From Dyella thiooxydans (GTDB lineage Bacteria; Pseudomonadota; Gammaproteobacteria; Xanthomonadales; Rhodanobacteraceae), in NCBI RefSeq assembly GCF_001641285.1, contig NZ_CP014841.1, forward strand, positions 310,001-374,000: a stretch of DNA of 64,000 nt, given 5' to 3'. The first letter of the stretch is position 1, and every line of letters starts with the position of its first letter. Both the position numbers and the translations under genes were made by a program. Positions 60,406-62,140 of the stretch are shown here, one piece after another. The notes beneath the pieces were generated by a model. The model was not told where the DNA came from and made no database searches. It saw only the letters and a list, made by a program, of their open reading frames with translations.

Positions 60406-61278
<873 letters not shown>

Positions 61279-61305
61279 TCCGCGGATCGCCGCGGGGCCC
61301 CGTCG

Positions 61306-61339
61306 AAGCCGTCGCACCCTCCGGTGCGGCGGCTTTTTT
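61306..61339 (+). terminator. Rho-independent terminator after accD
   Basis: GCCGTCGCACC pairs with GGTGCGGCGGC around a CTCC loop, followed by TTTTTT, about 30 bp after the accD stop. Confidence 0.9.
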
Positions 61340-61355
61340 GTGGGCGCATCCGGTG

Positions 61356-61517
61356 TTGTCCACAGCCGGTGTGGGTGTCCTGCGGAAAAGCCTGTGGACA
61401 AGCGCGATTCGCATGTTTGCGATCAGACACTTTCTACGCGCCGCTCATTTTCTGTGCAGCCGTGCGCGCGTTTTCCACAGCCGCTGTGGAGGTCGATGGG
61501 AAAAGCCTGTGGATAGG
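61356..61517. repeat. Two 47-bp near-copies carrying facing DnaA-box-like sequences
   Basis: Unit 1 (61356-61402) and unit 2 (61471-61517) match at 37 of 47 positions. Unit 1 holds TTGTCCACA and, 37 bp on, its inverse TGTGGACAA. Unit 2 holds TTTTCCACA and, also 37 bp on, TGTGGATAG. These are near the DnaA box TTATCCACA. The 68 bp between the units are locally AT-richer. The block lies between convergent accD and the PAP2 gene and codes for nothing evident. Confidence 0.75.
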
Positions 61518-61570
61518 TGGCCTATCGTGCTGATCGCACAGCACTCGTGCACGTGCTGGCTAGGATCTGC

Positions 61571-62140
61571 TCACGCCAGCAGCGCGAGATGACCCAGCCA
61601 CAGCGCGAGCGAACCGAGCGCGCCGCCGATGCCGATCGCCGCCAGCACGTCGCTGGGGTAGTGCAGGCCGAGAATCACCCGCGAGGCGGCGACCAGTGCG
61701 GTGAACGGCAGCAGCAGCGGCGCCAGCATCGGATACCAGGCCAGCGCCACCACGGTGAAGCCCACTGCTTGCAGCGTGTGGCCGGACGGGAAGCTGAACT
61801 CGTCCAGCGGCGGCACGTGCGCGATCACGCCGGGGCAGGCGCGGAACGGCCGCGGGCGCCGGGTCCAGCGCTTGAGCAGGCGGTAGAGCATCAGTGCGGT
61901 GAGCCCGGTGAGCGCCATGTGCGCGGCGGCGGTGAGTCCGCGCAAACCGTCGAACAGCGCCAGCGAGAGCATCAACGCATACCAGAACACGCCGTCGCCG
62001 AGCCGGCTGACCGCACCGAAGAACACGCCCACCGCGCGACGCGCGCCCCAGCGGTTGGCCGCCACGCACATGCGGCGGTCGATGGCGAAGCGCGGCCCGA
62101 TGGCAAGCTCAGGCGTGGGCAGCGGCGGCAGGCGGGACAT
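61571..62140 (-). CDS. PAP2-family membrane phosphatase
   Basis: A 189-residue PAP2 phosphatase with several membrane helices. The three signature motifs are KRWTRRPRPF near residue 90, FPSGHTLQAVG near 117 and SRVILGLHYPSDV near 158. Such enzymes remove phosphate from lipid phosphates or undecaprenyl pyrophosphate. The ATG at 62140 overlaps the preceding glycosyltransferase by 32 bp, so they share a message; a link to lipid or glycan metabolism is likely. Confidence 0.9.
   Translation of the reverse strand: MSRLPPLPTPELAIGPRFAIDRRMCVAANRWGARRAVGVFFGAVSRLGDGVFWYALMLSLALFDGLRGLTAAAHMALTGLTALMLYRLLKRWTRRPRPFRACPGVIAHVPPLDEFSFPSGHTLQAVGFTVVALAWYPMLAPLLLPFTALVAASRVILGLHYPSDVLAAIGIGGALGSLALWLGHLALLA

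Follow-up and report, generated by a model that had tools for sequence, protein, structure and literature searches.

A tandem array of DnaA-box-like sites downstream of accD in Dyella thiooxydans: a candidate DARS-like locus

In this study, we asked what role a duplicated cluster of DnaA-box-like sites could play in the gap between accD and a PAP2-family gene of D. thiooxydans. The stretch of DNA analysed (the window) is 64 kb long and corresponds to C1:310001-374000 of a single-contig genome of 4.23 Mb. On balance, our analysis favors reading the locus as an array of two units, each a DnaA-binding core, which may act like the DARS sites of Escherichia coli, and we infer that DARS-like reactivation is its best-supported function. 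This reading is based on the conserved boxes and their spacing, a spacing of boxes I and II identical to that in DARS1 and DARS2, a stretch of DnaA identical to that of E. coli, the presence of an Hda gene, the convergent neighbors and the existence of a second locus.

Organization and conservation of the units

The preliminary description had reported two 47-bp units with 37 common positions, and both were recovered here: unit A1 at 61356-61402 and unit A2 at 61471-61517 (both + strand), which start 115 bp apart and are identical at 37 of 47 positions as counted by eye. The nonamers that it had noted as facing each other at a 37-bp offset were likewise confirmed and correspond to boxes I and IV of each unit. 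Beyond that description, each unit has two weaker reverse sites, at offsets 14 and 25; there is also a conserved 3' flank, some 60 bp long, and a second locus. Each unit comprises one forward DnaA-box-like site and three reverse sites at offsets 14, 25 and 37, and the reverse boxes II-IV follow one another in 11- and 12-bp steps, which leaves 2-3 bp between nonamers. In A1, the box scan gave box I (TTGTCCACA, 61356-61364, + strand), box III (TTTTCCGCA, 61381-61389, - strand) and box IV (TTGTCCACA, 61393-61401, - strand). The degenerate box II of this unit (ACACCCACA, 61370-61378, - strand) was read from the sequence; its TGTGGA at 14-19 is conserved in 89 units, and it exceeds the limit of the layout finder described below. 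In A2, box I (TTTTCCACA, 61471-61479, + strand) and box IV (CTATCCACA, 61508-61516, - strand) came from the box scan, and the half-site box II (ACCTCCACA, 61485-61493, - strand), with the conserved TGTGGA, and the weak box III (TTTTCCCAT, 61496-61504, - strand) came from the sequence. A sequence-only model of the unit, R1, scored A1 at 54.2 bits and A2 at 53.8 bits, both units being part of its training set. The last unit of many arrays deviates; here, 61508-61532 consists of box IV, CTATCCACA, followed by an inverted GATAGG/CCTATC.

The 64-kb window contains 12 boxes with at most one mismatch from TTWTCCACA, where 4.6 would be expected and 0 of 100 shuffles reached this count, and five of the 12 lay inside A1 and A2. 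Genome-wide (4.23 Mb), the longer pattern TTDTCCACAG gave 13 matches against 10 for the reversed control, no more than chance, and six of these 13 fell in locus A and its second copy, locus B.

The array lies at a non-coding position, as DARS sites do, and both neighboring genes point at it: accD on the left (60406-61278, + strand; Pfam Carboxyl_trans and Zn_ribbon_ACC) and the PAP2-family gene on the right (61571-62140, - strand; Pfam PAP2, 3.8e-18). A probable intrinsic accD terminator, recognized by eye as an 11-pair stem followed by six T, precedes the array at 61308-61339 (+ strand). The segment 61300-61346, which covers it, folds at -28.1 kcal/mol (z -4.07), and the terminator pattern scan listed none at 61308-61339. 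This arrangement bears on whether the array might be a structured RNA or a 3' untranslated element of accD. Box I of unit 1 can pair with box IV (-20.2 kcal/mol, z -2.82), as such an element would allow. Yet across 25 sequences set in the correct register, 90.0% of cells pair and a change on either side at once is seen in 0 of 10 pairs, and the best Rfam match (E 0.11) had 19.8 bits, not near its gathering score of 48. With no compensatory change, no Rfam match and a probable terminator before the array, we consider the RNA explanation extremely unlikely and rejected it.

A consensus was built from 25 units of seven genomes and later from 89 distinct units; since a model of the initial 25 served to find the others, the conservation figures are inflated. 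At offset 0, the consensus of box I is TTTTCCACA, with TTG as the main variant. Box II appears as TGTGGA at 14, in its first six positions only, and box III as a weak GGnnAA at 28-33, compatible with a reverse box at 25 and followed by AAGCC. Box IV stands at offset 37, or at 38 in two of the 25 units. In the 89 distinct, model-found units, positions 3-8 were invariant and the TGTGG of box IV reached at least 0.98, both values being inflated in the manner mentioned. The spacing of boxes I and II also stood out in a count over seven single-contig family genomes; G297, which belongs to another family, was left out of it. Forty of 68 TCCACA/TGTGGA pairs (gaps 0-25) had the gap of 5 that corresponds to boxes I and II, 17 of the 40 being supplied by G112 alone, and the runner-up was gap 0 with 7.

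In addition, the conserved flank at 61403-61465 and its equivalent in other units contain two motifs at a near-fixed distance from box I, one a half consensus like that of IHF and the other a Fis-like dyad. In the window, the IHF-like site is GATCAGACACTTT (61421-61433, + strand), whose first and last base differ from WATCARNNNNTTR. CARNNNNTTR occurred at offset 67-69 in 39 of the 89 distinct units; the full IHF consensus was found in 0 of 89, and the best IHF-like match was at offset 65 in only 27. The Fis-like dyad was best at 86-87 in 69 of 89 units, averaging 9.08 of the 13 positions scored, whereas shuffled sequences averaged 7.78 (maximum 8.04). Passages of one study state that DARS2 of E. 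coli requires IHF and Fis sites (PMC4245941). Among the arrays listed, the units are 113-184 bp apart. Compared with uniform draws, the 21 distinct spacings seemed to follow a period near 11.5 bp (0 of 5000), but this was ordinary once seven cluster centers were allowed (759 of 5000), and we make no claim of quantized spacing.

Comparison with DARS1, DARS2 and datA of E. coli

The bioD-uvrB gap of MG1655, which we take to be DARS1, carries TTATCCACT (+, 2108 of stretch L141), TTATCCACA (-, 2122) and TAATACACA (-, 2134). DARS2, in the rppH-ygdT gap, carries TTATTCACC (+, 2136 of stretch L142), CTATCCACA (-, 2150) and TTCTTCACA (-, 2162); this placement fits the deletion primer MutH-9 given in a part of PMC4585315, which abuts the rppH-ygdT boxes. 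Both E. coli sites therefore have the arrangement 0/14/26 (+, -, -), against 0/14/25/37 in the window units. The two systems share a forward box I, a reverse box II at 14 and a reverse box III, placed at 26 in E. coli and at 25 here, as well as a non-coding position, two main loci and tandem boxes 2-3 bp apart. Unlike the three-box E. coli cores, the window units have a fourth reverse box at 37. The units are also repeated (two here, three in the Rhodanobacter loci L007-L009), box II is degenerate at locus A, the gene neighborhood is another one and the E. coli sites are unmatched by R1.

We further compared the layouts with a finder that seeks boxes I, II and III at 0/14/25-26 with up to five mismatches in total. 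Run on four E. coli stretches, it gave one match in each DARS stretch (two mismatches in total for DARS1, three for DARS2) and nothing in the datA or dnaA stretches; nor did it match anything in 627,006 bases of background from the D. thiooxydans genome. When the total was restricted to at most three mismatches, random sequence yielded 0.0 matches per 4.64 Mb and strand. In the D. thiooxydans genome, the finder picked unit B1 and a site upstream of priA, each also on the opposite strand because boxes I and II form a palindrome. It missed A1, A2 and B2, where box II has three mismatches, with CCACA or TCCACA kept at locus A; box III is often weak. The positions of the three-box DARS core are present, and box quality, judged by the limits of the finder, matches that core at B1 and the priA site but not at A1, A2 and B2. 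At 23 further loci (L173-L195), the finder gave at least one match in 18 and none in five, although the loci came from the R1 search, and boxes I and II are already part of that model.

Neither sequence nor neighborhood pointed to common descent with the E. coli DARS sites. R1 gave no match in the DARS1 and DARS2 stretches at E up to 1, and the neighbors, accD/PAP2 and DUF4124/SDR as against bioD/uvrB and rppH/ygdT, indicate no syntenic homology.

The array also resembles datA of E. coli in being a non-coding cluster of DnaA boxes away from oriC. Alternatively, it might serve DnaA titration or datA-like inactivation, DnaA being stored, or its ATP hydrolyzed, after fork passage. Boxes II-IV do run in one direction at intervals of 2-3 bp, which according to the published passages would favor chains of ATP-DnaA. 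However, the part of PMC5742627 that describes datA gives its essential boxes in one direction only, together with an IHF site, and the datA stretch is without an opposed 0/14 core. Here, box I is opposed to boxes II-IV, an arrangement that datA does not have, and it is among the best-conserved parts of the units. We therefore regard titration as unlikely, while treating it as the main rival of the DARS-like reading. The latter is best supported because boxes in the unit have the order and spacing seen in DARS1 and DARS2, and among the guesses of the preliminary description it is the one that gained from this comparison.

Genomic position and distribution

The replication origin most likely lies near dnaA. 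Three perfect TTATCCACA boxes (3142109, 3143600 and 3143634) flank the gene (C1:3142216-3143541), none more than 110 bp from its ends, and a GC-skew fit to 51 sampled stretches was best at 3.20-3.22 Mb and slightly lower at 3.12-3.14 Mb. The dnaA/oriC region thus has TTATCCACA boxes as well, but the finder detected no 0/14/25-26 core in its 19-kb stretch (L108). A second or alternative origin at the array, as the clustering of DnaA-box-like sites might suggest, is hardly credible given the position of dnaA with its perfect boxes (3.142-3.144 Mb), the best skew fit, and the skew within the window, which is positive in each of its four 16-kb parts. It was rejected on skew and dnaA position, and the array showed neither the skew switch nor the dnaA neighborhood expected of oriC here. 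The early judgment that oriC was not the first guess therefore holds, and the second initiation region proposed beside it is disfavored. The contig itself begins at hda (C1:40-696) and not at dnaA (3.14 Mb).

R1 matched 105 of 147 genomes of the family, representing 22 of 26 genera, and gave no match under strict filters in the other 42. In a sample of 200 genomes of the order, 76 had matches: 31 belonged to the own family and 27 to a second one (f2), and the remaining 18, from other families, mostly gave weak single matches. Across the class, 16 of 229 genomes were matched, three from the own order and 13 outside it, mostly over boxes I-II only. The nonamers are therefore kept in relatives, and the doubt initially attached to their conservation was not borne out. 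Loci of f2 have the same layout, with TGTGGATAA as box IV in 12 of 17 units among those listed, and some of them have pssA-like, PHA-synthase-subunit, 3-hydroxybutyrate dehydrogenase and ppsR genes nearby. When 19 named accD loci were scanned, units followed accD in three, all from Rhodanobacter (L007-L009) and each with three units with the 37-bp offset; the Luteibacter accD locus (L010) and 15 other named ones had no units after accD.

The second two-unit locus, B, lies at C1:2690264-2690425, and loci A and B were both present in all four genomes of the genus examined. Among the best 30 family loci, 20 matched accD and/or PAP2, seven matched DUF4124/SDR and three matched neither pair; two of these three (L158 and L168) resemble, by eye, the cupin/trpF end of the same trp-accD region. 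R1 matches per genome ranged from 1 to 17. Amplified arrays were seen at L187, L188 and L190, for example near-identical units 128 bp apart and an additional array some 5 kb away from that at accD, and unit matches at many places were seen in G015 and G036 (genus g13).

A dispersed or mobile repeat, in which the likeness to DnaA boxes would be secondary, could account for this range of copy numbers, for the near-identical units 128 bp apart in G112 and for the separate places with matches among those listed (at least seven in G015 of the family and at least five in G297 of f2). Against this, 27 of the 30 best family loci lie at two orthologous places, and the boxes are the most conserved positions. 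We consider such a repeat very improbable. The concern that the unit might be found at many loci was therefore dispelled for most of the best family loci and upheld for G015 and G297, and matches at five or more places in some relatives weaken the two-locus picture. Up to 17 matches per genome, and several places in some genomes, would also store DnaA well, as titration supposes.

Additionally, an E. coli-type 0/14/26 core was found about 100 bp upstream of priA (C1:2697252-2697287; L107:13253-13288), with TTATCCACA, TGTGGATAA at 14 and TGTGGATGG at 26 on the reverse strand; priA was identified by NCBIfam and Pfam. Sites of this type, taken as sites irrespective of the adjoining genes, also occur in four other family genomes, G112, G134, G126 and G023; those of G112, G134 and G126 lie 7-9 kb from locus B. 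Among nine class-level loci, three (L199, L204 and L205) have a 0/14/26-type core beside a match to the PriA of D. thiooxydans. DnaA-box cores of the 0/14/26 layout were also observed in other orders of the class (L201, L202, L203 and L206). The priA site and the other gene settings in other families would suit transcriptional control by DnaA or by a different regulator that recognizes a palindrome, and the abstract of PMC11317965 mentions that DnaA also regulates genes. Nevertheless, loci A and B lie between gene ends wherever both neighbors were matched, which converge on the array at 18 of 18 loci with accD and PAP2 and 10 of 10 with DUF4124 and SDR, and a search for the sigma-70 pattern gave no promoter-like site in 61200-61700. 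Gene control is thus an improbable explanation of the array.

Along the arm from dnaA to the opposite pole, 33 clusters from 20 genomes included 14 at 0.7-0.9 and nine at 0.2-0.4. This sample comprised 19 one-contig genomes and one two-contig genome, with sizes partly rounded and orthologous loci that are not independent. The count took in rows of at least 25 bits and, for G111 and G034, the single best row; weaker rows were left out, three of which (24.6-24.9 bits) belong to clusters already counted. All genomes except that of D. thiooxydans (G000) had been chosen for having R1 matches, so that 20 of 20 is uninformative on frequency. In D. thiooxydans, locus A lies at 0.69 and locus B at 0.21 of the origin-to-terminus arm, the latter position being in line with titration; synteny alone could produce the clustering. 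Passages of PMC5010248 describe a conserved relative distance of DARS sites from oriC among E. coli strains.

Proposed mechanism and meaning

The DnaA of D. thiooxydans and that of E. coli have GRDHTTVLHACR in common, a stretch of the DNA-binding domain that we take to be the signature of DnaA-box recognition. Binding of DnaA to the array is very likely. A gene for Hda is also present (TIGR03420, 228.5 bits with the cut-off at 194.8), so that ADP-DnaA is probably made and would need recharging.

Under the DARS-like reading, DnaA would bind box I one way and boxes II, III and IV the other way in each unit. With intervals of 2-3 bp, boxes II-IV would permit head-to-tail chains of DnaA; two papers report a preference of E. 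coli DnaA for boxes paired at intervals of 2 or 3 bp (PMC11317965) and state that such intervals favor head-to-tail binding (PMC8682772). Boxes I and II are opposed and 14 bp apart, as in DARS cores, and two accounts for E. coli describe how the opposed boxes I and II of DARS bring two ADP-DnaA molecules head to head, with release of ADP (PMC8682772; PMC5742627). By analogy, head-to-head contact at boxes I and II might loosen ADP from bound DnaA, and apo-DnaA would then be released, which would supply ATP-DnaA for the next initiation. The repeats may multiply this nucleotide exchange, and IHF or Fis might take part at the flank.

More broadly, it is possible, and we propose it tentatively, that the order has its own class of DnaA-reactivating loci: a tandem four-box DARS core, placed in the family mainly at two orthologous places, with the repeat number setting the rate at which ADP-DnaA is recharged. 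In the titles and abstract openings of open-licence literature on DnaA boxes or DARS in Xanthomonas, Rhodanobacter, Xanthomonadales, Vibrio and Shewanella, this element was not found. The consulted parts of PMC4245941 and PMC5742627 describe DARS control for E. coli and related species. If the proposal is true, such control would reach back further than the E. coli-related group from which it is described, or would arise anew more easily, and the array suggests that chromosome copying in another order may be controlled through similar tandem sites. Furthermore, the tandem four-box version would offer natural variants, from 1 to 17 matches per genome, for testing the effects of box order, spacing and copy number, and such tests would address DnaA recharging and the timing of initiation.
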